A stretch of DNA of 64,000 nt, taken from NCBI RefSeq assembly GCF_040448675.1, contig NZ_CP159289.1, positions 6,307,001 through 6,371,000 on the forward strand, in the 5' to 3' direction. The notes beneath the pieces are model-generated. The model saw nothing but the letters and a program-made list of their open reading frames with translations. It made no database searches and was not told the origin of the DNA. A program made the position numbers and the translations under genes. This stretch comes from Dyadobacter sp. 676 (GTDB lineage: Bacteria > Bacteroidota > Bacteroidia > Cytophagales > Spirosomataceae). How positions within the stretch are numbered: position 1 is the first letter of the stretch; every line of letters starts with the position of its first letter. Positions 8,076-21,808 of the stretch are shown here, one piece after another.

Positions 8076-8189
8076 GTCAGGTGTTGTCAGGTATTGCCTT
8101 TGCCAGGGTCATTCCCAACTTTGAGCCCTTAACTCTGAACTTTAAACTTTAAACTTTAAACTCTGAATTCAACTCCCGAACGCTCGACT

Positions 8190-10433
8190 TTATCCGCTTC
8201 CGTCCAGCAGGTCTTCGGTGCGGTCTATGCCGAGGCTCATAAAGACGCCTATGAAATAGAAACGGGGGGGCGGGGAGAGTGACAGGGGTCTTGAACTGGC
8301 CGTTGTAGGCGTAGTGGTACCCGAATATTTGTTTAGTTCCGAGCAAGTTGTTGGCCCCGAATGCGAATCCCGAATAGTCTTTGAATTTCGATTTTTTGAA
8401 AAAGGTCATCATTTTCGACACGTGCAGGTTAAGCACATTATAAGGGCGGGTGGTACCGGAATCGTAAACGCGGGTGCCTGCTTCACCGCCCGGGCGGATG
8501 TCATAATACGGCCGGCCGGCGGCATAGGAGTACGAAACATTGACATTGGTGCTGATTCCCTGGAAAAAGCGTTTGACTGCGACCGTGAACGTGTGCGGAC
8601 TCGTGAATGAAGGCCTGATCCTTTGCGGATAATCCAGGTAGTCGCGCTTCGTGTCGAGGTAGGTGTAAGTCAGCCAGTAATCCAGGTTGCGCACGGTCTT
8701 TTTTGTCGCGCCAGAAAAGCTCCAGTCCCTTCGCATAGCCGTCGCCTCCCATCGAGGTTTCGGGAAATGTCCGCACGAGGTCCCTGTATTTCTTGTAATA
8801 AACCTCCGTCCTGAAAAACCGGTTGTTAGCCTTTTTGGAATAATTCAGCACATAATGCTCCGATTGCGAAAACCCTAAGTGCCGATTTTGGAAAAGGTAC
8901 CTGTTTTCGGGTTTTTGGTAAAAAATACCATAGGCCAGATTCAGCTGACTGCCGGCACCGAGGCGGTATCCCAGGCTCGCCCGCGGGGCTATCACCGCTT
9001 TGCGCAGAAGGGTCGAATACTCGCCCCGTAACCCCGGCCGGAATGCAACGTGCTCGCCGATGTGCAAGTCGCTCTCGATAAAAATAGCCGATAGCTGGTC
9101 GCGGAGAGACTTTTTTGTCGCCATTGTAGTTCTGAATGTCGTGGAAATAAAAAGTTTCGCCGCCGAAACGCAACGCCTGGTTGCGGTCGAAGCCGCGGGT
9201 GAGCACCGCCCGCGCCTGCGCGAAATGCGACCGGACGGTTATATCGCTGTTTTTAGCTGAAAATGGTGCGCGGGGAATGGCTATGGGCTCGTTGTCTCCG
9301 GTCAGAAGGCGGTTGAGGATACTGTTTTTGTCAAGAGTATAGGCAAGGCCCGCGTCCAAGCGCCAGTTTGCCCCTAAATCCGTCCGGTAGCTGGTGGTCC
9401 CGTAAAAGTTGGGGTTTTTCAACCTGAAATCGGAGCGGAGCGACGCGCTGTCGACATCGGCATTGCGCATTCCGATATTGCTTTCGGCGTAGGCGGCGTA
9501 TGCTTTCAGCATTCCCGTTTTTCCGGTTTTGAGGCGAATGTTGGCATTGGCGCTGGTATATTCCGGGCCCCGGTAGTAGTCGGGGCGCTGCCGCACGACT
9601 TTGTTGTATAACCTCTGATTGCTGTAAGCGAGCCCGCCGCCGTAACTGCTCCGGCCCGACCTGGACAAATGCTGGAAGCCCGCTCCGAGGTTCGACGGAA
9701 ATACGCTGAAATTGGCGGAGCTCTTTTCCGGCAGATCGATGCTTTCCAGGATCAGCGCGCTGCTCATGGCCTGCCCGTACAATGCCGAATAACCACCGGT
9801 GTTGAACAGTACGCCTTTAAAAAGAAACAGATTAACGCGTGCCGGCTGCATAATGCCCGGCACAGAAGCATAGTTGGGGTTCTTCATCAGCGTACCGTCC
9901 ACGAACATCTTCGTTTCGTCGTTGGTACCACCACGTACAAACAGCCCCTCGCGCTCGCCTACCTGCTGTGCACCCGGGAGCGCCCGCAACGCATTGGAAA
10001 TGTCGCCGCCATTGCCGGCCACGGTATACGCGTCGATAGGCGTGAGCGAAGCGCCCTTGGCCTTGTCGCTGGCCTCGAAACTGCCGGCGCTGACGGTGAC
10101 TACCTCGAGGGTATTGGCAGCGTCATCGAGGACAATGGAGAGTGTAAGCGAACTGTCGGTGAGCGTTATCGTTTGCTGGTGCGTTTTGAAGCCGACCGAC
10201 GAGACCAGGAGCGTCTGGGTACCACGCCGGGTTGTCGTGAATTCAAATTTGCCCAGCGAGTCGGCCACGGTGCCTGTGCGTGAGCCTTTGAAGCGGATAT
10301 GGGCACCGGGAATGGCTTCGCCGAGCGGGCCGGTCACTTCGCCGTTGATGCGCGTCTGCGCCCCGGCTGTGAGGGCCAACACCAGGCCGGTCGCCGTTAC
10401 GATGAGTTTGGTTGTAAATGCATTGGAAATCAT
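8190..10433 (-). pseudogene. TonB-dependent receptor, broken by three homopolymer frameshifts
   Basis: From ATG 10433 there is a signal peptide ending 'ALTAGAQ', a carboxypeptidase-regulatory-like domain ('INGEVTGPLGEAIPGAHI') and a TonB-receptor plug ('ISNALRALPGAQQVG', 'GLFVRGGTNDETKMFVDGTL'). The barrel is split over three frames. Breaks are T6 at 9111-9116, T6 at 8699-8704 and G7 at 8264-8270. Removing one base from each gives one 746-residue protein ending in a normal last strand, 'FYFIGVFMSLGIDRTEDLLDG', with the stop at 8190. It follows a LytS/LytTR pair on the same strand (gap 107 bases), so that pair may control it. The protein is not SusC-like: it is shorter and has no SusD partner. 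An upstream start at 10475 is possible, but 10433 gives the better signal peptide. Confidence 0.88.
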
Positions 10434-10540
10434 GCCTTTGTTTGTTTTTTTGACCAAAGCTATATGATGTACCAATGCGTTTCAGGGCGAGTAGACGAGC
10501 CGGTCAATGCCCGCGACGAAGCGGTGAAATCCTGCGACGA

Positions 10541-11257
10541 CTATTCGCCGGAGATATTTAGGATTTTGCGAAGATTGTCTTTATAATGCTCGCTGACGGG
10601 AATTTCGGTAGTGCCGATCATGACAAAGTCACGCTTCACGGCCGTAATTTTTTGAGCGGCCACCAGGTATGATTTGTGGGTACGGACGAATCCCGGCTCC
10701 GGCAGCTTTTCCTCCAATGCTTTGAAAGTCATGCGGGTAATAACAGGCTTCGGTGCCGAAGAGAGGTAGATTTTTACATAATCCTTTAATCCCTCGACCC
10801 AGGCGACATCGGCGGCCATTATTTTAACCAATGAATATTCGACATTCACGAAAAAATCGGGTAATGCCTTCGGCGGATTGGAATCCGGCGTTTTCTGTTT
10901 GAGTTGAAACAGTTCGTAGGCACGGTTGCAGGCTTTCAGAAAGCGCTCCATACTCACGGGTTTGAGCAGATAATCGACTACATTCAGCTCGAAACCTTCC
11001 AATGCATATTTGTCATAGGCCGTAACGAGGATCACCAGGGGAGGGTCGGGGAGGCTTTTCAGGAACTGCAGACCGCTGAGCCGCGGCATTTGGATATCGA
11101 GAAAGAGGAGGTCGATAGGCTCATTTTGTAATATTTCAATGGCTTCCATCGCATTGCGCGCCGTTTTGACCAGGGTGAGGTAGGGCACCTGCCGGATATT
11201 ATCGATCAGGAGGTCGAGCACGAGTTTTTCATCATCAACGGCCAGACATCGCATCAT
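10541..11257 (-). CDS. LytTR-family response regulator
   Basis: 238 residues: receiver domain 3-125 with acidic pair D8/D9, phospho-acceptor D54 in 'LLFLDIQMP', T79 and K99 ('DYLLKPVS'), then a LytTR DNA-binding domain from about 140 ('VEYSLVKIMAADVAWVEGLKDYVKI', 'VRTHKSYLVAAQKI'). LytTR regulators bind direct repeats near promoters. The start codon overlaps the kinase stop as ATGA (11257-11254), which signals translational coupling, so this kinase is its expected partner. It lies directly upstream of the TonB-dependent receptor gene. Confidence 0.95.
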   Translation of the reverse strand: MMRCLAVDDEKLVLDLLIDNIRQVPYLTLVKTARNAMEAIEILQNEPIDLLFLDIQMPRLSGLQFLKSLPDPPLVILVTAYDKYALEGFELNVVDYLLKPVSMERFLKACNRAYELFQLKQKTPDSNPPKALPDFFVNVEYSLVKIMAADVAWVEGLKDYVKIYLSSAPKPVITRMTFKALEEKLPEPGFVRTHKSYLVAAQKITAVKRDFVMIGTTEIPVSEHYKDNLRKILNISGE

Positions 11258-12270
11258 AATAAGTTCAGATTCAGGGTTATTGTAAAAATATTATTGCGAT
11301 CGTCGATAACCAGGCTGTGTTTGTCGGGGTAGATAAGTTTCAGCCTTGTACGTACATTTTCCAAGCCTATACCCGAGTGGTCGTCCTTCGCGGCGTCGGG
11401 ATGGGAATCGTAGGGATTTTCAACCCTGAGCGCGAGAAGCCCGCCGGCTACCTTGAGATCGATTGAAACATAAGGTTCGTCGAGCCAGGAGGCACCATGC
11501 TTGAAGGCATTTTCCACAAAAGGGATCAGCACCATCGGTTCAATGGGCAAACCGTCGGCGTCTGTTTGAATAGCCAGCTCGATGCGCATAGCGTCCGAAA
11601 AACGCAGCTTTTGCAGTTCAATGTAACTTTTGAGATAATCCGTTTCCTGTTGCAGGGTTACCTGCGTCGCCTGGGTGTCGTACGTCATGTACCGCATGAG
11701 GTCGGCCAGGCGGATGAGCGCCCCTTCGAGCCGGTCGGACTTCTGCCTTGCCAGTGCGACCATGTTCGTCAGCACGTTGAAAAGAAAATGCGGGTTAACT
11801 TGCGACCGCAGCAATTTCAGTTCGGCGGCCACTTGTTGCGCTTCGTATTCTTTCCGTGCACGTTCTTTGCGTATTCCGTCGGTGATTCGTCGGTAGGCAA
11901 TGCTCGCCGCGAAAACAAATATGGAAGGACCAAACACCAGCCCGCCCGAATTTTTCAGCATTATTTCGGGAAATAACCGGACAATGAGCTGGTATTTAAC
12001 GGCGAACGAAGCCGCGATCAACGCGGCCGCGCAGGGCACATACAGCCACCAGCGCCTGCTATTGGCCAATTCGGGATAGAGATAAAATGCATTGAAATAA
12101 AAAATGGCCGCATGGATTATTCCCGCCATCACAAAAAACGCAGCCGGCAGGCCACCGATCTTGTACCCTTCACCGGCCGACGACACCAGATAAGGCAGGA
12201 GCAGAATAGTGGCCCATATGCCGATATGGACTGCAACCTCCCGTTTCTGCCGCGTGTTTAAAGATGCCAT
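11254..12270 (-). CDS. LytS/YehU-type sensor histidine kinase
   Basis: 338 residues from ATG 12270, chosen because it opens a normal N-terminus (MASLNTRQKREVAVH) just before the first of about four membrane helices (15-32, 42-64, 76-94, 112-127). The His_kinase domain has His161 in 'LRSQVNPHFLFN', and the ATPase domain has 'PIEPMVLIPFVENAFKHG' and 'GIGLENVRTRL'. There is no extracellular sensor domain, so any signal would be sensed in or near the membrane. Partner of the overlapping LytTR regulator. Confidence 0.94.
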   Translation of the reverse strand: MASLNTRQKREVAVHIGIWATILLLPYLVSSAGEGYKIGGLPAAFFVMAGIIHAAIFYFNAFYLYPELANSRRWWLYVPCAAALIAASFAVKYQLIVRLFPEIMLKNSGGLVFGPSIFVFAASIAYRRITDGIRKERARKEYEAQQVAAELKLLRSQVNPHFLFNVLTNMVALARQKSDRLEGALIRLADLMRYMTYDTQATQVTLQQETDYLKSYIELQKLRFSDAMRIELAIQTDADGLPIEPMVLIPFVENAFKHGASWLDEPYVSIDLKVAGGLLALRVENPYDSHPDAAKDDHSGIGLENVRTRLKLIYPDKHSLVIDDRNNIFTITLNLNLL

Positions 12271-12330
12271 CTGAGCGTAAATCCAAATTTGCAGGAAATT
12301 GTCTGCTAATAAAAGAAATGGGCAGCTATA

Positions 12331-12363
12331 TAAAAAACCAGGCGGAGAGAAGCTCCCCGCCTG
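12331..12363 (-). terminator. Rho-independent terminator after the T9SS surface-protein gene
   Basis: On the minus strand, caggcgg (12339-12345) pairs with ccgcctg (12357-12363), with further pairing inside, followed by TTTTTT. It is placed to end the 19902-12410 group before the kinase gene. Confidence 0.85.
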
Positions 12364-12409
12364 ATTCATTAATTCAAACGATATATCAGCAGTGCGTTCG
12401 GTGCCGTAA

Positions 12410-15400
12410 TTATCGGTTGATAAGCACTTTACGGTTGACCACCCCGCCGTTTTTATGCGTGATCGTGAGGATGTACATGCCCACCGGCAGATTTTTTACA
12501 TCGATGCTCTTGGACGCGGTGTTACCCGATTTGTAAACCGAAAGCCCTGTCATGCTATGCATTTCCACCGATTTAACCTGGTTCCAATCCGTGCTTTTCA
12601 GGTTCAGAACGTCTGAAACCGGGTTGGGGTAAAATTCAGATTTCAGGGCGTCTTCGCCGTAGCGGACATTGATGATCTTGCTGTATGCGAAGGTTTTGTC
12701 CGTGTCGACCATTTTCAGGCGGTAGAAGTTGTCGCCCTGGCCCGGATTCTTGTCCACAAATGTGTAGTTCACCACGGTATAGCTTTCGCCATGCGACTTT
12801 TCGGTGCCGATCGTTCTCCATTTTTTGCCGTCGGCGCTGCGCTGGACTTCGAAATGGTCGCTGTTCATTTCCTCGGCGGTGCGCCATTTCAGGGAAACTG
12901 TGTTCTCCACTTTTTCACCTGAAAAATCAATTAATGTTACCGGGAGCGAGCAGTCTTTGTAAGCGGTGAGCGTGTCCGTGCAATTGTTAAGCGTCGCCAC
13001 AATGGTCGCAGTTTGCTTGCTCGGTACGCCCACAACGGTGTTCCCATTGACAGTTCCCTTGTCGGTGGTAATCACGGCCCCCGGAGTAGCTGTAAAGAAA
13101 ACGGTATAAGTTTGCGGATCGGTCGAATAATCGCACTGGTACTCGGCACCGGTCAATGCGATTGTCGGTTTTGCATTGACAGTAACGGTCGCCGTCTGTC
13201 CGGAAACCGGCGTCGAAGCGCCGCCTGCTCCGCTCACCTGAGTGAGTGTGTAAACGAATGATCCCGTGGCGGCTGTCGGCACATTCACGGTTGCCGAGGT
13301 GTTGGAGCCGGTCGTGGTGACCTGCTGGTCGGGGCCGCCATTGATCTGGTACGTGAATGTGAACGGGGCTACGCCATTCACGGCCGTAAAGGTAATCACC
13401 GGCTCGGTTTCGTTTTCGCAGGCGTCGGTGCTGCCGGAGATGGTCGCCGAGAGGTTGTTGCTGACGGTTATCGTGGCGGTCTGGGACGGAGACGGCGTAA
13501 GTGTACAGCCCTGCGCGTCCGTTACCGTCACCAGCTCATACGTGAACGTGCCGATGGCAGCCGTCGATTGGCTCACGGTAGCCGTGGTGTTGACCCCGGT
13601 TGTGCTCACGGTCTGGTTCGATCCGTTGTTGACCTTGTAAGTAAATATGTAAGGCAAAGTACCGCCGGTAGCGCCGAAAGTAACCAAGGGAGCCGGTGCG
13701 CCCTGATCGACCGTCGCGCTTCCGGTCAAGGTGGAACCGGTAATCTGGTTCACTGTGAGCACGGCGGATGCCGAAGTACTATCGTTACAAGGATTTGAAA
13801 CGATACAACGGTATTCGGCGAGGTTGTCGGTGGCGGGGACATTGGTCAGCGTCAGTGTCGGATCGTCGGCGGTGGGGTTTTCAGCGGTAGTGATGTCCGC
13901 AAATGAGCCGCCTGATGGTTTTTTCTGCCATTGATAAGTCGCGCCCGATTGCGAGGTGGCGACGGTAAACGAAGCGCTTGCACCTGCGCAGATGGTTTGC
14001 GCGTCGGGCTCGTCCGTGATAGGCGGCGCCGGGGTAGGGGTTACGGTTACAGTGAACGAACACGTTGGCGCCGTGCCGATCCCGTTGGAAGCCGTTACGA
14101 GCACCGTTGTCGTGCCCGCGGGAAATGCGTACGGGAACGTAATCGGATTTCCGTCGACGGTATAGGTAATGGTCGCGGCCGGACATGCGTCGGCGGTTGC
14201 TGCGAACGTCTGTGTGGACGTACAGGTACCCGCGTCGGGTGAGAAAGTCTGGTTACCCGGGCAGAAAGTGATCACCGGCGTGGAGACAACCGGGGTAATG
14301 GTCGGGTTGTTCGTGCCCGGGGTGTTCGGATCGTCGGTCAGCACACTGGCGAAGTTGCTGCCGCTGACGGTACCCTGGGTGGAGAGCTGGCAAACAGACG
14401 CCGGGATATTGTTATTGATCGTAACCCGGAATTTGATGGTCGTATTCTTGCCGGCGGGCAAGGTGAAACCGCTGCCGGTTCCGTTGACGGTCACAGTCTC
14501 TCCGGCTTGCGCGGCTTCTGTTCTGGCTGGGTTTGGTGCTGTTGCCGCCGCGGTTTCGGAAACTGCTTCCTTTTCCGGTCCGGACGACGGAATCGTCGTC
14601 GCTGCTTTGGGCGCTTCCTGTACGGGCGCTTCCATGGCAGCGATGTTTTCCAGCGAAGGTTCTTCTATAATGCCTTCGCGCAAGGTGCCGACATTGGGAA
14701 CCGCGCAAGTCTGTCCGAACAGATAAGGATTGGCCGAGCCGCTCTGAACGGCACTGCCGGCAGGGGTATTTCCGCCGTTGTTCCACACATCCACAATAGT
14801 GCCGCCGGTTCCCTGCACCAGTATCGTCGTGGTGGAAGTACCCGATCGGGTGCGGTAGGCAGTAATGGCGGCAGGCTTGCTAACAGTGTTGCTGGTGACA
14901 TTGGTACAGAGTTTGGAATTGTTGCCTATTGCGCCGGTTGTCACCATATCCATACCGAAGTAAATATCTCCCGAACCGGAGTCCGTCACCGTAATATTGT
15001 TGTTTTTGACATTCATATTGCTCTGTGCGCCGGAAGTGGAGGTCGTCGTCACCGCAATACCGGGAGAGTCCACGCTGGTGAGCGTATTGTTCTGGATCAG
15101 GAAAGTACCCCTCGCACCGACACCCTCGGCGGAGTGCACGATTGCCGAAACGCCCGAAGAGCCGGTTTTGTTAATCAGCGTGTTGCCGGTTACATTGCCC
15201 TCGAGGTATCCGTTCTGATAGGCGAACATGTTGAGGCCGATACCTCCGAAAAAATTACCGGTATTGCTCAGGATGTTAAACTTCAGGGTGGACGACCCAG
15301 CGGCTGCCATGTCAAAAACCCGCCCGACGCCATTGCCGACATCGACGCTGGAATTTTTGATATCCGCCTGCATTTGCGCATTTTCGTTAGCGCCCACATA

Positions 15401-17364
15401 CACACCCACGGTGGAGTTTCTCAAGAACTTGGAATTGTTCTGTACCTTAAGTTTCATATCCGAAGTGCCGTACCCGAAAAATTGAAGCCCTGAGTTGCTT
15501 GCATCCTGAAATGTAGAGTTGTCGACCGTCAGCAGTGCCATATTGGTGTTGGTATTGCTGAAATATGCCGCCCGGCCGCCCGGATCGGTGAAGGTGGAGT
15601 TTACGATGGAGTTGGTACCGCCCGTGTTGATCGCGTAGATACAACCCTCCTCGCTCGTTTGCCCCGACGAGCCGATTGACCCGTTGGTGAAATTGAAATT
15701 GCTGCTGTTTCTCAGGTTGATTCCCTCTTGCGCCACTGTTCCGCTGATTGCTATGCGGTCCATGGTCAGGCCGTTTACATTGAAAGCATGTACGGCAGCA
15801 TTGGCATTGGAGTTGTCCTGGTTGGTGGGCGTGATCCCGTCGACAGTGTTGGCGTTCGACAGGTTAATATTTTTGAGCGTGATATTCGTTGCATTGAGCA
15901 ATTCGATACCACGTTGCGCGATATTCTGGATGGTTCCACCGGAACCAGGCGTCGTTCCAGCTCCTGTTACCTGAAATGTTCCGGTCGTGTTCGACAGGAT
16001 CATTCCCTTGTTGCCGCCGTTGGCGTTTACGGCATTCAACGTAACCGCCAGGGCGATTCCGCCCCCAGTGCCGGCGACATCCAGCGCAGGTAGGCCCGAG
16101 GCGGTGAGCGTACCCGAGGAAATAGTCAGGTTTCCGCTGCCGGACGTAATTTTGACCGGACTGACACCGGAGCCAATACTGGAAGACACCTCGTCGAACG
16201 AAGCGGCCAGGACTTTGCCGGAGAGATTGAGTGCCGTTCCGGTGCCCGTCAGGCTGATATGGCTCGTCGTCAATGTTCCGGCGCCTGTCCCCGCGATTTT
16301 CGCACCGGCGCTGTTTCCGATGTTGATTCCGCGAATGGTGGCGGTACCCGTTGCATTGAGGACATCGCCCGAGCTACTGGTAAGGACCGGTCTTGCGCCG
16401 CCCGTCGCAGGCAGCAGGTTGGTGCCGCTCGGCGCGGGAAAGCCGGTGAGCGCAAGCAGCGATTCCGCAGCGCCTTGCCCGAAAAGTTTCTGATTATTGC
16501 GCAAGGTAATGTTGCCGTTGTAGTTCCCGCTGTACAAGAAAATGACATGTCCGTCCTTGGGCCGGTTGACTCCTCCATCGTTAATATTCTGGAATGCGGT
16601 CATCGTGTTGAACGGGCTGGCAAGTGTACCGTTTCCGCCACCGGGTGCGCTGGTATTGATGAACCATATCGCATTGTTGGCACCGTTTCCGATGGTGATC
16701 GAAACGGTAGCGGTAGAAGTCATGCCGGAGCCGTTCTGGATATCGTAAGTAAACGTGTCGGTTCCGATATAGCCGGCCGCCGGCTGGTATGTAAATGCGC
16801 CCGTCGCAGCTGCGATGGTTACCGCTCCGCCGTTGGCGGTTGTGAAATTGGAAGCGCTGCTCACGCTAAGCGCCGTGCCGGCCGGACTGACGTCGTTGGC
16901 CAGTAACCCCTGGCCGGCGGGAATGTCGATCGTGACGTTGCCAATCGTGGAATAACTGTCGTTTTGGGCGATCGGGCTGGCTTTGACGGAACCTGCCACC
17001 AGTGTCGTATTGACGTCGATGGTTTCGGTAAAAGTGGTGCCGTTGGCCGGATCAGGGCCGCTGTTGGTAATTACCACGGTGTATTCCAGTTCGTCACCGG
17101 CAGACGCACCGGCAGGACCGGTATTATTGGTGATCGCGTAGGTATTGGTAGCACTGATACCGGGTGCGAGAAGTGCCTTCGTACCCGTTTTTTTTGCGTA
17201 CGGGCAAAGGGGACCCTCTCCTGCTTTTTTCTATCGGACGGATTTTCCTTTTTCGCCAGCCACTTCACTTGCGGGGCGGCGGCGTCATCAGAAATTTTGC
17301 TGACTATTTCAGCGCCGGACGCCAGCAGGACAATCCCCGTCAGGTATACGTAGAAATTTCTCAT
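12410..17364 (-). pseudogene. Giant T9SS-secreted surface protein (beta-helix, Ig/HYR-type domains), frameshifted at a T8 run
   Basis: An open frame of 1555 codons starts inside the gene at 17077. Upstream in another frame, ATG 17364 gives a possible signal segment (MRNFYVYLTGIVLLASGAE). Changing the T8 run at 17188-17195 by one base joins them as 'KKTGTKALLAPGISATNTYAITNN' into 1651 residues. Visible order: DUF11-like repeat (to ~17000), cadherin/Ig-like module (~16990-16690), a long Asn/Thr/Gly-rich right-handed beta-helix (~16680-14790), an Ala/Glu/Pro linker (~14680-14520), an HYR module (~14290-14040), an Ig-like module with Cys pair (~14035-13745), two ~90-residue PKD-like repeats (~13740-13180), and a C-terminal T9SS type A sorting domain ('FYPNPVSDVLNL', 'LPVGMYILTI'). 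It should be exported and anchored or shed at the surface. It ends the tail-collar operon. Confidence 0.85.
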
Positions 17365-17433
17365 GGTTTCAGTTTGATGGGAAAAGATTGAGTCATAGGA
17401 TTTTTGAGGATAATTGATCCGGCACGGGCCGGC

Positions 17434-17742
17434 TTACGAGAAAACTGCTTCATAGCGCGCACCATTGGAATCCGGTGCGATCGGCACAAGAAAAATGTCC
17501 ATGTATTTGCCGATGGGATGTACAACCCGGTAAATCCCCTGGGCGATGGCCCGGTTCTCGCCGGTAGTCTGAAACTCCACCGAAAATGCGCCCCGTTCCA
17601 GAGGGGTGTAGCTATTCAATTCCGTTACTTTCAGAATGGTCGACGGCAGCGAAAAATCCCGGGCAAACTGAATAGTTACCGGTTGCCCCACGTACGGCAG
17701 AAAATCTGCTGCGGCTATCTGGCTTAAATCGTATGCTTCCAT
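17434..17742 (-). CDS. DUF6916-like small protein
   Basis: 102 residues, no signal peptide or membrane segment. The sequence is strand-rich ('QPVTIQFARDF', 'YTPLERGAFSVEFQT', 'MDIFLVPIAP') and matches my recollection of the DUF6916 family, small proteins encoded next to tail-collar genes; no function is known to me. Its start lies inside the GNAT gene (19-base overlap, 17724-17742), so the two are likely co-translated. Confidence 0.7.
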   Translation of the reverse strand: MEAYDLSQIAAADFLPYVGQPVTIQFARDFSLPSTILKVTELNSYTPLERGAFSVEFQTTGENRAIAQGIYRVVHPIGKYMDIFLVPIAPDSNGARYEAVFS

Positions 17743-18227
17743 TCCATTAAATGATAAACTCCATTGGTTTCACTGATTGTTTTAAATCCAAGGCGGGTAT
17801 ACAGATTTTTGGCGGGATTGAAAGTTTCCACATGAATGCTGAGTGGCCGCCGAAGTTCGGCGGCCTTGTTCATGAGGTCTTTGAAAATACCCTGGCCTAG
17901 TCCCTGGTTCCGGTATTCCGGCAGGATACTGATGTCGATAATCCGGATACCCTTGCCCTGGAAATTTTCGTGGAGGTAAAGCCTCCCGATGGTTTTCTTC
18001 CCGGACTCGATTACCCAGAAATCGGCGCCGGCGTAGTTTTTCTGATAGTATTCATGCTGCGCATTGAACTGGCTTGAAACGAATTCCTTTTTCATTAAAT
18101 CCGTCCAGTGAGGTACCCGTTCCAGTTCCTTTTCCCGTGTGCTGGAATAAATTTCCAAAAGGGCGGGGAGGTCTCGGGAGGTAACAGGCCTGAGCGTAAG
18201 AGTGGTATTGGTAAGCGTGAATTTCAT
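17724..18227 (-). CDS. GNAT-family N-acetyltransferase
   Basis: 167 residues, the size of a single GNAT domain. The acetyl-CoA loop is 'ILPEYRNQGLGQGIFKDL' (R/QxxGxG/A pattern, about residues 103-120), followed by the beta5/alpha4 segment 'FNPAKNLYTRLGF'. The protein is cytoplasmic. It sits between three tail-collar genes and the DUF6916-like gene, overlapping the latter, so I infer that it modifies a component of that set, for instance an N-terminus or lysine of a fibre protein. An unrelated small-molecule substrate is also possible. Confidence 0.88.
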   Translation of the reverse strand: MKFTLTNTTLTLRPVTSRDLPALLEIYSSTREKELERVPHWTDLMKKEFVSSQFNAQHEYYQKNYAGADFWVIESGKKTIGRLYLHENFQGKGIRIIDISILPEYRNQGLGQGIFKDLMNKAAELRRPLSIHVETFNPAKNLYTRLGFKTISETNGVYHLMEWKHTI

Positions 18228-18266
18228 TGATTTTCAGAAAACATCGGCAATTTCGATTCCGGTTTG

Positions 18267-18782
18267 TCAGCCGCGCGGCGGGAACACCCCTTGCAACGCG
18301 ATGCAAAAATAGACCGTCAGGTATGGCATCATATTGTTGTGCGGCAGGCTTCCGCCGGCCGGCGCGATCTGGTTTGGCGCCATTTGCGTATTGGGCGCTC
18401 CGGAGGCGTATACTTTGCCTTGTGTCGACGCGGCCAGCGAGTAGCCGCCAGGGGTTTTCAGGTCGGCTGGTTCCGCCACGGCCCGGATCTGATGGTTGTG
18501 AAAGGGAATTTCGCTGTTGATCAACGACACTGTTTCAGAACCGCCCGCTTCGCCCAGGTCGTGAAGCGAAAGGCCGGGCCCTTGCCCCGGGTGCATAGGA
18601 GCGGACCCCTGTAAATCCGGCAATGCAAAGGTGGATTTGCCATTGCCTCCGTAGGTTGTGCCGAGAAGTGAAAACAATGCGGTGTTTTGCGAAAGCGGCA
18701 AAATCTGCCCATCGCACCAGGCCCAGCCTTTGGGCGCAAAATTGAACGGGAATATTCTTATTTCTGCTACGAAAGGATCCAT
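18267..18782 (-). CDS. Tail-collar domain protein (copy C)
   Basis: 171 residues. The N-terminal half is the phage tail-collar fold: 'FVAEIRIFPFNFAPKGWAWCDGQ', 'LLGTTYGGNGKSTFALPDLQG'. A central block, 'IPFHNHQ', and the C-terminal 'MMPYLTVYFCIALQGVFPPRG' are shared with the two neighbouring copies. There is no signal peptide. Such MdpB/microcystin-dependent-type proteins resemble tail-fibre tips, but no phage genes are nearby. Third of three tandem paralogues, 39 bases before the GNAT gene. Confidence 0.9.
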   Translation of the reverse strand: MDPFVAEIRIFPFNFAPKGWAWCDGQILPLSQNTALFSLLGTTYGGNGKSTFALPDLQGSAPMHPGQGPGLSLHDLGEAGGSETVSLINSEIPFHNHQIRAVAEPADLKTPGGYSLAASTQGKVYASGAPNTQMAPNQIAPAGGSLPHNNMMPYLTVYFCIALQGVFPPRG

Positions 18783-18824
18783 GATAGTCGATTGAGGTTT
18801 AACGGTTCGGGTTTCATTTACGGA

Positions 18825-19341
18825 CTAGGTCTGAGACGGGTAGATCCCGAATAGCGAAATGATGAAATTGATACAGAGATAAGGCTGAAAATTGGTGTGA
18901 GGCTGGCTTCCGCCGTTTCCGGATACGCTATTGGTGGCCATCAGCGCCGACGGCGGATCGGAGAAAAAGACGTTGGTGGTAGTGGAAACGCCCAGTATCG
19001 CATTGGCCGGACTCGGGACGTCGGCAAGGTTGTTGGACGCCACGAAACCGTGCGAGTGGCTGGGAATTTGCTGGACCGTCAGGGTTACTTCCTCTACACC
19101 GCCGGTTTCTGCCAGTATATAATTGCCGCCCCCGCCTGTTCCCTGGTGAATGGGAATACGCCCCCCGGAGGTCCGGAAGTGCAAAAGTGCTTTGTCCGTC
19201 CCCGCCGTAAGTAGTGCCGATCAGGTTAAAAAGCGTGTCGTTCTCGGATATGGGGAGCAGTTGTCCCTCGCAGAACATCCACCCCGCGGGGGCGAAATTC
19301 CCTGCAAACATCCTGATTTCTCCCACGTATGGTTGTGCCAT
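18825..19341 (-). pseudogene. Tail-collar domain protein (copy B), frameshifted at a C6 run
   Basis: The first part (ATG 19341) reads 'YVGEIRMFAGNFAPAGWMFCEGQ' to 'STFALPDLRG' and then shifts frame. The rest resumes with 'RIPIHQGTGGGGNYILAETGG' and ends 'CINFIISLFGIYPSQT'. Taking one base from the C6 run at 19161-19166 (G6 in the coding strand) gives 171 residues, the same length as copies A (170) and C (171). The exact match in length and the intact flanks make a sequencing or slippage indel far more likely than decay. Confidence 0.9.
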
Positions 19342-19389
19342 ATTGATTAATATTTCAGGTTAAAAAAGAATAGAAAACGGGCCGGACGG

Positions 19390-19902
19390 CTAGTTCGCGC
19401 TTGGAAAAATCCCTTGCAATGCAATGCAGAAGCTGAGGGTAAGGAACGGCTGCATGTTTATGTGGGGCTGGCTTCCTCCGACATTCGCCACTGTCGCCGG
19501 ATTGAGCGTCACCAGATTGCTGTTGCTGCTCGTGTAGAGGAAGTTAGGCTGCGTGTTGGAAAAGTAGTTGCTCGTCGGGTTATTGCTGTTCGTAACCGAT
19601 GTATTATCTATGGCTGAAACGAAGTGAGTGTGCAACGGTAACTCCTGAATATTAAGGGTGTGCGCCGCTTCGCCGGCACGTTGCCCCAGGGTGTGGCCGT
19701 TGCCTACATGAATGGGCGTTCTTCCCCTGAAATCGGGCAATGCAAAATTGGATCTGCCATCGCCGCCGAAGGTTGTGCCAAGCAGAGAAAACAATGCCTG
19801 GTTTTGACCAATGGGTAAAAGCTGTCCATTGGTGAATGCCCAGCCCTTGGGAGGGAAGTTGAAACTGACCATTCGGATTTCTGCTAGAAATGGTTCTGCC
19901 AT
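19390..19902 (-). CDS. Tail-collar domain protein (copy A)
   Basis: 170 residues, first of three tandem paralogues. It starts 'FLAEIRMVSFNFPPKGWAF' and has the collar core 'LLGTTFGGDGRSNFALPDFRGR', the 'LPLHTH' motif, a Ser/Asn-rich middle (residues ~105-135) that differs most between copies, and the shared tail 'QPFLTLSFCIALQGIFPSAN'. Only the middle varies while both ends are conserved, as in trimeric fibre tips with a variable binding surface. The next copy starts 48 bases downstream. A 538-base non-coding region lies upstream. Confidence 0.9.
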   Translation of the reverse strand: MAEPFLAEIRMVSFNFPPKGWAFTNGQLLPIGQNQALFSLLGTTFGGDGRSNFALPDFRGRTPIHVGNGHTLGQRAGEAAHTLNIQELPLHTHFVSAIDNTSVTNSNNPTSNYFSNTQPNFLYTSSNSNLVTLNPATVANVGGSQPHINMQPFLTLSFCIALQGIFPSAN

Positions 19903-20440
19903 AGAAGAAATAGTTTAGATTGATGGATGGATTATTACAGATCGGCAAATAGCAGCCGGAGCCGCCCCATGCCGGGTAAGTAGCGGAAAATCAGCTTTGC
20001 GGAGAAAGCGGCCCGTGCGTCACGAATGCGAGACCAGGAAAGTGAGTGTAGAGCGGCAGAATAAAAAGCGTAGAAGTTCTTTTCATGTTCGGAGGTGCGT
20101 TTAGGTTAGGTTTTTGTAAAATTAGTACTTCAATATTAGCGATATATCATCATTTATATGAGATATATTACGATTTAAATGAAAGAAATTACTAAACGGT
20201 AATAGTTATTCTACGTATAGCGCTATTCAGCGATACACTGATTTTCTAGTAATAGGTTGGTACTGAATATAGTGGGACGGGTTTAGCTGGGAAAAAAAAG
20301 TTATTAAGGGAAGAGCCGCGCAGAACCGGCGGCCATTAGCCCCGCGACTCATTTTTTTGTGAGATATTCAAATACCGCATGTTAAGAATGAGGGCCGTGT
20401 GCCTTTATTGGCTGATCACACTTTCCTAATCCCGGTATTT
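19903..20440. promoter_or_regulatory. AT-rich non-coding region upstream of the tail-collar operon and GH140-like gene
   Basis: This divergent intergenic region (538 bases) carries the 5' signals of the leftward tail-collar operon and the rightward glycosidase gene. No TAnnTTTG element is visible in either direction. The part at 20110-20240 is very AT-rich and has a short inverted repeat (atatatca ... tgagatatat, about 20140-20170), a possible regulator site. A 31-codon reading frame lies at 19991-20086 on the minus strand. Confidence 0.4.
19991..20086 (-). CDS. Possible 31-residue peptide upstream of the tail-collar operon
   Basis: An ATG at 20086 opens 'MKRTSTLFILPLYTHF' and stops at 19991 after 31 codons. 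The start looks like a signal peptide (basic then hydrophobic) but the rest has no recognisable content. It could be a leader peptide, the remnant of a broken exported protein, or chance. It is too short for any composition test. Confidence 0.25.
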   Translation of the reverse strand: MKRTSTLFILPLYTHFPGLAFVTHGPLSPQS

Positions 20441-21808
20441 ATGAGTCCACGCAGGCTACTTTTTCCCGCAATTCTTGCATGTTCGCTCACGATTGCACGC
20501 GCCCAGCACTATGTGGTAAGCGAAAACAAACATTTCCTGCTTAAAGACGGCAAACCGTTTTGCTGGCTCGGCGACACCGCCTGGGAGCTTTTTCACCGCC
20601 TCAGCCGTCCCGATGCCGATTATTATCTCCAAAAAAGGGCCGAACAGGGCTTTACGGTAATCCAGGCGGTGGTCCTCGCCGAGTTCGACGGCTTGGAGGT
20701 ACCGAATGCGTATGGCGAAAAACCGCTGATCGGCAACGATCCCGCCCGGCCGAACGAACGCTATTTCACACACGTAGACTATATTATCGACAAAGCGGCA
20801 TCCTACGGGCTCACGATTGCGCTACTGCCCACATGGGGCGACAAGGTTTTTAAAAACACCTGGGGTAAAGGCCCGGAAATATTCAACGAAAGCAATGCCG
20901 GGACCTACGGTAAATGGCTCGGCAACCGCTATAAATCGAGGCCGAACCTGATATGGGTGCTGGGAGGCGATCGCCAGCCGCGGAAAGACAGCCGGGACGT
21001 CGAAATATGGCGGGCAATGGCGGACGGTATCGCCGAAGGGGTTGGCGGCCACGACAAGGCGCTGATAACCTATCACCCGCAGCCCAACAGAGAAGGTTCC
21101 AGCGAGTGGTTCCACAGCGACGAGTGGTTCGATTTCAATATGTTCCAGACCGGCCATTGCCGCGATACACCTGTTTACGAATACATTCAGCGGGCTTATA
21201 ATCGTATGCCTGCCAAGCCGGTTATCGACGGGGAGCCCATTTACGAGGATCATCCGGTTTGTTTCAACTCAAAGGAAAACGGCACGTCCAGCGCATACGA
21301 CGTCCGAAAGTCGGCCTATCTCGATCTTCTCGCCGGGGCATTCGGGCATACATACGGCTGTCATGACATCTGGCAAATGTATGCGCCGGACCGGGAAGCC
21401 GTGAATGGCCCGCACGTATTCTGGCAGCAAGCCCTCGACCTTCCGGGGGCCCTGGAAATGAAGTATGTCCGCAGGCTCATCGAATCCCGCCCTATGATAG
21501 ACCGCGTTCCCGACCAGTCGGTGGTTGCCGAAAACGCGTTGCCCGCCGCCGACCGCGTGCAGGCCGCGCGCGGCAAGGATTACCTCTTCATTTATACGGC
21601 CTCGGGGAAACCGTTTTCGGTGAATCCCGGAAAAATTTCGGGCACCAGCCTCGATGCGTTCTGGTACGACCCCCGTACAGGGAAAGTCAGGGATGCGGGG
21701 AAGTTCGATAACAAATCGGTAAACCGGTTTATTCCGCCTACTTCGGGTTACGGGCACGACTGGGTGCTTGTCGTGGATGACGAGGCGAAACGTTACCCCA
21801 GGCCGTGA
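20441..21808 (+). CDS. GH140-like glycoside hydrolase (DUF4038, apiosidase-like)
   Basis: 455 residues from ATG 20441, which opens a signal peptide (MSPRRLLFPAILACSLTIARA); an upstream in-frame ATG at 20399 would bury it. The DUF4038 TIM barrel begins 'FLLKDGKPFCWLGDTAWELFHRL' and continues 'GFTVIQAVVLAEFDGL', 'LIWVLGGDRQP' and 'KPVIDGEPIYED'. The C-terminal ~85 residues ('YLFIYTASGKPF', 'FWYDPRTGKV') match the putative collagen-binding domain usual in this family. Characterised GH140 enzymes release apiose-capped side chains of rhamnogalacturonan II. The protein is exported, probably periplasmic. It stands alone on its strand, 99 bases before the sigma-factor gene. Confidence 0.87.
   Translation: MSPRRLLFPAILACSLTIARAQHYVVSENKHFLLKDGKPFCWLGDTAWELFHRLSRPDADYYLQKRAEQGFTVIQAVVLAEFDGLEVPNAYGEKPLIGNDPARPNERYFTHVDYIIDKAASYGLTIALLPTWGDKVFKNTWGKGPEIFNESNAGTYGKWLGNRYKSRPNLIWVLGGDRQPRKDSRDVEIWRAMADGIAEGVGGHDKALITYHPQPNREGSSEWFHSDEWFDFNMFQTGHCRDTPVYEYIQRAYNRMPAKPVIDGEPIYEDHPVCFNSKENGTSSAYDVRKSAYLDLLAGAFGHTYGCHDIWQMYAPDREAVNGPHVFWQQALDLPGALEMKYVRRLIESRPMIDRVPDQSVVAENALPAADRVQAARGKDYLFIYTASGKPFSVNPGKISGTSLDAFWYDPRTGKVRDAGKFDNKSVNRFIPPTSGYGHDWVLVVDDEAKRYPRP

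Follow-up and report, generated by a model that had tools for sequence, protein, structure and literature searches.

The 64,000-nucleotide window analysed here (Dyadobacter sp. 676, contig NZ_CP159289.1, positions 6,307,001 to 6,371,000; coordinates without a prefix are positions within this window) contains a cassette on the minus strand, at 12335-19902, in which three phage-type tail-collar proteins, a GNAT acetyltransferase, a DUF6916 protein and a giant surface protein are encoded in this order of transcription, followed by a terminator-like stem. Such genes, annotated singly as "tail fiber protein", "GNAT", "hypothetical protein" or "Ig-like protein", form one conserved set present in at least eight phyla, which looks like an undescribed bacterial system for touching or sticking to things. 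Judging from the sequences, the chances are about even that the cassette is a surface-display system in which fibre tips of phage type act with a giant adhesin, with a role in adhesion. The gene set, including the overlap of the GNAT and DUF6916 genes and a giant protein of the type IX secretion system (T9SS), had been named in a preliminary description made from the letters of the window, and is borne out by the open reading frames (ORFs) and their Pfam matches.

To follow the spread of the set, genome contigs were scanned with the collar alignment; of 584 confirmed places the 80 most similar to the query were kept (total span 1.36 Mb) and their parts counted with our own profiles. At least three collars were present in 77 of the 80 loci, a nearby GNAT in 74, a nearby DUF6916 in 63 and all three kinds together in 61. 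Among the 61 loci not cut by contig ends (3.5 kb margin), an ORF of at least 1000 residues lay within 2.5 kb in 51, and all four parts were found in 42. The GNAT profile matched near collars in 75 of 76 instances in the 80 loci, with one match elsewhere, while 57 of the ORFs of at least 1000 residues were near collars and 12 far from them. Clustering of all neighbours returned three common clusters, namely collars with GNATs (80 loci), DUF6916 (62) and giants (56); the next recurred in 7 of the 80. According to record titles, the loci belong to Bacteroidota, Pseudomonadota, Acidobacteriota, Chloroflexota, Actinomycetota, Verrucomicrobiota and Bacillota, and plasmids add Deinococcota, bringing the total to at least eight phyla. 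The preliminary description had named a lack of conserved order as a refuting condition. Within the genus the order is conserved, order and strand being those of the window in all 11 loci read. Across phyla strict order is not general: the set is kept, but the giant may be upstream or downstream, and DUF6916 can be encoded on the opposite strand or at a different place within the set. In one locus (L053) the DUF6916 gene had been missed by the ORF filter and was placed separately.

The association was also observed in collections of genomes. DUF6916 is patchy in the genus of the window (26 of 48 genomes) and occurs in 13 genomes of a 395-genome sample of its phylum, the window's own included; all 15 copies outside the window in that sample adjoin at least one collar. 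A second sample, not chosen by similarity, comprised 200 genomes of the phylum of a Bradyrhizobium genome (G455), hence Pseudomonadota, and held DUF6916 in 31 genomes and collars in 56. By distances read by eye, a collar is at most 5 kb away from 32 of the 35 copies of DUF6916, which belong to 29 of the 31 genomes. The exceptions are the copy in G514, about 46 kb from a collar, that in G534, a genome with no collar, and one of two in G648. Exactly three collars were found in seven of nine genomes that carry named loci, the others being Sulfidibacter with 17 and Edaphobacter with one. The 17 matches of Sulfidibacter corallicola (L116, G458) resolve by eye into five trios and two others. On plasmids, 61 of 70 collar-matching records were classed as non-mobilizable; DUF6916, recognised by Pfam, adjoins the plasmid trios of Ruegeria and Sinorhizobium, and the window DUF6916 used as a single query matched only 6 plasmid records.

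The three collars of a locus are, as far as sequence relationships tell, three old paralogue lines. In a tree of 255 collars from 85 trios, three clades, chosen with position labels at hand, follow gene position, and 76 of the 85 trios hold one member of each (shuffles: mean 16.7, maximum 29). The tree leaves out the window and the loci without exactly three collar ORFs (14 of 80 and 7 of 26, several of them with overlapping ORFs); the window collars were assigned to clades from their best matches to same-genus relatives and from position. Clustering without labels agrees in part: the trio members all differ in 82 of 85 trios under complete linkage with k=4 (shuffle maximum 34) and in 67 under Ward with k=3 (shuffle maximum 30). 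Furthermore, 205 of 244 collars are by median closer to same-clade collars elsewhere than to their best adjoining paralogue. Collar numbers in the 56 collar-bearing genomes of the Pseudomonadota sample are 1 in 26, 2 in 5, 3 in 22 and 6 in 3, and none of these 56 has 4 or 5. Fused genes agree with this: one ORF of Paenibacillus eucommiae (L143) joins collars of clades 2 and 1 and is followed by a clade-3-type collar, and three same-genus genomes carry a second kind of cassette (L178 in G011, L179 in G018 and L180 in G003; one genome holds two such pairs) with a single-collar gene, a double-collar gene and a giant of 1271-1294 residues with a T9SS tail, so that the unit again totals three collar domains. 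Trios with one of each line, together with these fusions, are the trace that a heterotrimer would be expected to leave in genomes.

Collars were also described as having conserved ends and a variable centre, and the variable centre was borne out: over the first 60 columns of the alignment the commonest residue has a mean share of mostly 0.7-0.9, which falls to 0.27-0.47 in those central blocks that vary most. The clade alignment has an invariant PxHxH stretch, which we take to correspond to the metal-binding HxH of gp12. Searches with a single collar sequence returned nothing at E 0.001, and the clade 3 profile matched the fibre structure 8kec (E 5.9e-7) and T4 gp12 (1ocy, E 1.9e-5). At the N-terminus, residue 2 is Ala in 131 and Ser in 84 of 245 collars (215 together), 10 of the 255 being outside the start pattern and not counted. 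RimI-like enzymes acetylate Ala and Ser N-termini.

By neighbourhood and by gene fusions, DUF6916 and the GNAT are dedicated to the collars. In three genomes of one family a single ORF joins DUF6916 to a collar through a twin-arginine segment that includes a hydrophobic stretch, and in one further ORF a collar is followed by DUF6916. The twin-arginine (Tat) motif is an export signal; a simple pattern found Tat-like starts in 12 of the 73 DUF6916 ORFs of the 80 loci (the one at residue 47 is probably a false call), and TatC is present in the genome of the window. The DUF6916 model is a six-stranded barrel (pLDDT 90.6), for which Foldseek and VIA-align gave barrel matches at background level, including some of PilZ/YcgR-N type, and no significant relative. 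RimI is the best NCBIfam model for the window GNAT, which does not reach the equivalog TIGR01575 (39.7 bits against a cut-off of 86.4). A loose R/QxxGxG/A acetyl-CoA pattern occurs in 73 of 75 cassette GNATs, with at least one match that looks accidental. In two loci a formyltransferase (PF00551/PF02911) takes the place expected for a GNAT beside collars and a large protein, on a Spirosoma plasmid with no GNAT annotated and in the second collar locus of a same-genus genome with no GNAT match (L175:9545-10498 and L183:6105-7064). GNATs and formyltransferases both transfer an acyl group to an amine.

The giant is, on the evidence of alignments, a homologous partner in many loci whose anchor is exchanged by lineage. 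Parts of the window giant, mostly residues 1-800, align at 25-40% identity to giants of Pseudomonadota, Acidobacteriota, Chloroflexota and others, and residues 242-791 match residues 1311-1876 of the 1884-residue giant of Lysobacter sp. (L125) at 33.6% identity (E 3e-45). A T9SS sorting domain is present in every one of the 21 giants scanned in the window's phylum. These are a selection of the large ORFs beside collars; the scan left out four same-genus loci (L047, L048, L053 and L054), L077, which is cut at its end, and L075 and L081, which show no clear giant. Twelve of the 21 align at length to the window giant, whereas the match of the other nine is restricted to the tail or to a short stretch, or is lacking, which indicates that the anchor persists in giants whose body differs. 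In 22 giants of other phyla, all members of the giant cluster, Big_9 was found in 15, cadherin-like domains in 13 and S-layer homology (SLH) domains in 4, the last count fitting four Paenibacillus members by their C-termini. The T9SS anchor named in the preliminary description is the Bacteroidota version of the surface anchor, with SLH in its place in some giants of other phyla. Of the T9SS machinery, SprA was searched for and found in the host genome (1901 bits).

Taken together, these parts suggest a mechanism in which three gp12-like collar proteins would fold in the cytoplasm and assemble as a mixed trimer, most likely with one copy of each. The dedicated GNAT would N-acylate this tip module, most likely at the collar N-termini (Ala or Ser after removal of Met), and the DUF6916 barrel would be a dedicated collar partner, serving as escort or adaptor in assembly or export. 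The finished tip would act outside the cell with the giant cadherin/immunoglobulin (Ig)/beta-helix protein, exported and anchored here by the T9SS, and contact would be made by the variable centres of the three collars, probably in adhesion to glycans, to particles or to other cells. In line with a place outside the cell, the exoproteome of Ruegeria pomeroyi grown with Synechococcus contains a collar-domain protein (YP_165745.1; PMC4949626), a possible cassette member. A fuller version, in which a 1:1:1 tip is folded, N-terminally acylated, exported in the folded state by Tat with DUF6916 and mounted on a giant with a lineage-swapped anchor (T9SS, SLH or others), we consider doubtful. If this fuller version is correct, much of the bacterial domain shares a phage device that has been domesticated without a contractile tail as its base. 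The conserved set itself places DUF6916 in a context and leads to two predictions, that the fibre tip is a heterotrimer and that it is acyl-modified.

Several observations weigh against this proposal. The set is not uniform: one or more of the four parts is missing from 19 of the 61 uncut loci, and DUF6916 is missing from 12, including five Paenibacillus or Lysinibacillus loci, while neither GNAT nor DUF6916 was matched in the stretches with single and double collar genes that were read (L178, L179, L180). Support for the three collar clades is moderate (0.54-0.77) and position labels were used in picking them; complete linkage with k=3 makes the members of only 10 of 85 trios all different and average linkage 6, the latter method having been set aside as it did not recover three useful groups. 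Window collar 3 begins with Met-Asp, a poor fit to Ala/Ser N-acetylation, and the window DUF6916 lacks a Tat-like start. No export signal was seen on the trio collars, none of the 31 ORFs with an upstream extension having a hydrophobic stretch in it, and their proposed passage to the outside thus has no visible signal behind it. For collar 3, AlphaFold gave a monomer model of low confidence (pLDDT 56), uninformative on the trimer and too poor for a structure search. Finally, seven of the 31 DUF6916 genomes in the Pseudomonadota sample have a single collar: a one-collar form exists, and a heterotrimer is not needed everywhere.

These single-collar loci with DUF6916, where one collar can evidently suffice, also speak for a reading in which the collars are three separate homotrimers with different ligands, that is, a lectin-like repertoire of tips, and the giant is an independent, co-expressed adhesin. 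Phage collars form homotrimers, in keeping with it. A shared particle is nevertheless the better fit to trios with one of each line (76 of 85), to single and double genes that total three and to the clade 2 and clade 1 fusion, and the homotrimer reading is held to be unlikely, if still worth weighing. A little less probable again is that the targets of the GNAT and DUF6916 are the giant or a cell-surface glycan rather than the collars. Both GNAT and formyltransferase appear in these loci, and the two replace each other in amino-sugar biosynthesis; DUF6916, however, is fused to collars in both orders, and beyond collars with GNATs, DUF6916 and giants no neighbour cluster recurs in more than 7 of the 80 loci. 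The combination of phage-type receptor-binding folds with variable centres and patchy occurrence within the genus could instead point to a decoy, with tip mimics on the surface or released that block adsorption by phages or bind rivals. This anti-phage or anti-competitor role appears improbable: PADLOC recognised no family in four cassette proteins (those other than collar 2 and the giant), no defence family was found among 10 flanking ORFs tested with Pfam, and giants with S-layer or T9SS anchors and cadherin or Ig repeats resemble adhesins.

The least probable explanation by far, to which we give hardly any weight, is a prophage or tailocin remnant or a phage-borne cassette. The collar domain is of phage origin, and 9 of 79 collar loci on viral contigs have at least three collars and 2 have the GNAT, most of the nine contigs being short and possibly misassigned. 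The preliminary description had judged that the stretch is not a prophage and had named collars found mainly inside prophages as a refuting condition; the judgement agrees with our results and the condition does not. The tail sheath PF04984 has 0 matches in the host genome (G000), the same search having matched 3 of 14 genomes as a control. The same ten flanking ORFs, which are a part of the ORFs in the window, include no phage family and encode a histidine kinase, a LytTR regulator, an apiosidase-like enzyme, sigma-70 region 4, FecR, pieces of a TonB receptor, SusD and DUF1501, one being unmatched. DUF6916 is present in 0 of the 79 viral-contig collar loci, has no PHROG, and has no match in 50,697 phage records, a result that is weak alone, coming from a single query sequence of limited sensitivity. 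All 263 phage records that match collar 3 are less than 60% identical to it (33.7-37.7% in the 30 listed), whereas 46 other aligned clade 3 collars, most from other phyla, are 47-75% identical. The absence of a sheath, the ordinary flanks and the wide occurrence of the set outside phages, in many phyla, led us to reject this explanation.

Features of the cassette in the window, with positions on the forward strand
Feature	Position	Strand	Description
Collar 1	19390-19902	-	170 residues; begins MAEPF, clade-1-like; Collar PF07484 E 1.9e-26
Collar 2	18825-19341	-	Begins MAQPY, clade-2-like; Collar E 1.9e-28 on the N-terminal piece
Collar 3	18267-18782	-	171 residues; begins MDPF, clade-3-like; Collar E 2e-26
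GNAT acetyltransferase	17724-18227	-	167 residues; Acetyltransf_7 PF13508 E 6.5e-12
DUF6916 protein	17434-17742	-	102 residues; PF21880 E 2e-20; predicted six-stranded beta barrel
Giant surface protein	12410-17364	-	ORFs 17071-17364 (hydrophobic N-terminus) and 12410-17077 (1555 residues)
Giant: Big_9 / cadherin-like domain	16694-16978	-	PF17963 E 1.5e-16, residues 34-128
Giant: residues 242-791	14705-16354	-	Aligns to C-terminal end of the Lysobacter sp. cassette giant (L125)
Giant: T9SS C-terminal sorting domain	12419-12631	-	Por_Secre_tail PF18962 E 1.4e-11; TIGR04183 38 bits against a cut-off of 23
Terminator-like stem-loop 3' of giant	12367-12335	-	15 pairs, then a T run

Pfam scores of the window proteins are well above the curated cut-offs for the collars (92-99 bits against 24), DUF6916 (73.1 against 27) and the GNAT (46.1 against 27), and the window trio is the only one in its host genome, a single contig of 7.28 Mb in which no further collar was found at E 0.001. 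The DUF6916 gene overlaps the GNAT gene by 19 nt and the remaining intergenic gaps are 39-69 nt. The hydrophobic N-terminus of the first giant ORF was seen by eye. The terminator reported after the giant exists as a paired stem with a T run, which shares sequence with the 5' end of the next gene if that gene is read at its longest (11254-12369), but the region is no richer in such sites than shuffled sequence (13 against a mean of 11.6), and promoter-like sites are rarer than in shuffles (3 against a mean of 6.1). On the other side, an apiosidase-like enzyme with a collagen-binding-type domain (20399-21808) is divergent from the cassette, and beyond it lie a sigma factor, FecR, a TonB receptor and SusD.

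Collar 2 and the giant had been read as whole genes, which they are in relatives, but here each is split over two frames. Collar 2 consists of the overlapping frames 18928-19341 and 18825-19184, both of which align to the intact collar 2 of a relative, and the two frames of the giant were recognised by alignment to an intact same-genus giant. All three collar ORFs are intact in each of the 11 same-genus relatives read, and the giant is a single ORF of 1387-1720 residues in all 11. The shift regions contain G6 and A8 runs, through which phase variation would be possible; however, the splits are probably errors of this assembly or sequence, because other genes are also broken: a TonB-type receptor at 8149-10475 is in three frames compared with an intact relative at 84-87% identity, and SprA (G000:C1:2349377-2356343) is split over two frames with a stop. 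The host genome thus seems rich in frameshift errors.

Other genes were observed in or next to related cassettes. A periplasmic-binding-protein-like gene (Peripla_BP_6) lies inside the cassette at L167:9608-10858, L137:11658-12794 and L140:11663-12802, the last scoring just under the cut-off; those of L137 and L140 have no obvious leader and no nearby GNAT. Proteins with Tat-like N-termini and no Pfam match adjoin the cassette at L049:12814-13458, L076:10867-11535 and L072:9758-10699. Short collar genes of 100-125 residues occur in the same genus (L181:4706-5083 and L182:4934-5635), paired in L182 and with a GEVED T9SS protein nearby in L181.

No description of this set as a system was found in the open-access literature searched, which leaves out bioRxiv and most subscription journals, and DUF6916 returned 0 papers in the same search. 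Possible relatives of its collars appear in earlier papers. In Rhizobium, RhiB of the RhiABC group has a collar domain and a suggested role in plant contact, and RhiA and RhiC have no Pfam domain (PMC13133039); the likeness, compared by description, is that RhiB too is found outside phages, on a plasmid or chromosome. Paralogous tail collar genes of Solibacter include some with signs of positive selection (PMC3174227). In Acaryochloris marina MBIC11017, low far-red light induced AM1_3684 and AM1_3686 to AM1_3690 among the most strongly responding genes, and strain MU13 showed this for four of them (PMC11633204), which the paper gives in tables. Three of the genes are annotated as "phage tail collar" and one as a putative acetyltransferase, alongside conserved hypothetical proteins whose tags adjoin; this resembles the cassette, an assignment that rests on annotations.

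Compared with known systems, the closest relatives of the collars are the T4 short tail fibre gp12 and related fibres, which share the Collar domain by the clade 3 profile, while the cassette collars are free-standing proteins of about 170 residues, usually three, encoded on bacterial chromosomes and plasmids with a GNAT, DUF6916 and a giant. Tailocins, extracellular contractile injection systems and type VI secretion systems likewise put phage tail parts to bacterial use; the window differs from them in having no sheath in its genome and no tube, baseplate or spike gene recognised by Pfam in the cassette. The surface adhesins of the T9SS and SLH kinds resemble the giant in their Ig- or cadherin-type repeats and lineage-typical anchor, whereas the giant of the cassette is linked to the collars and to the genes that would modify them.

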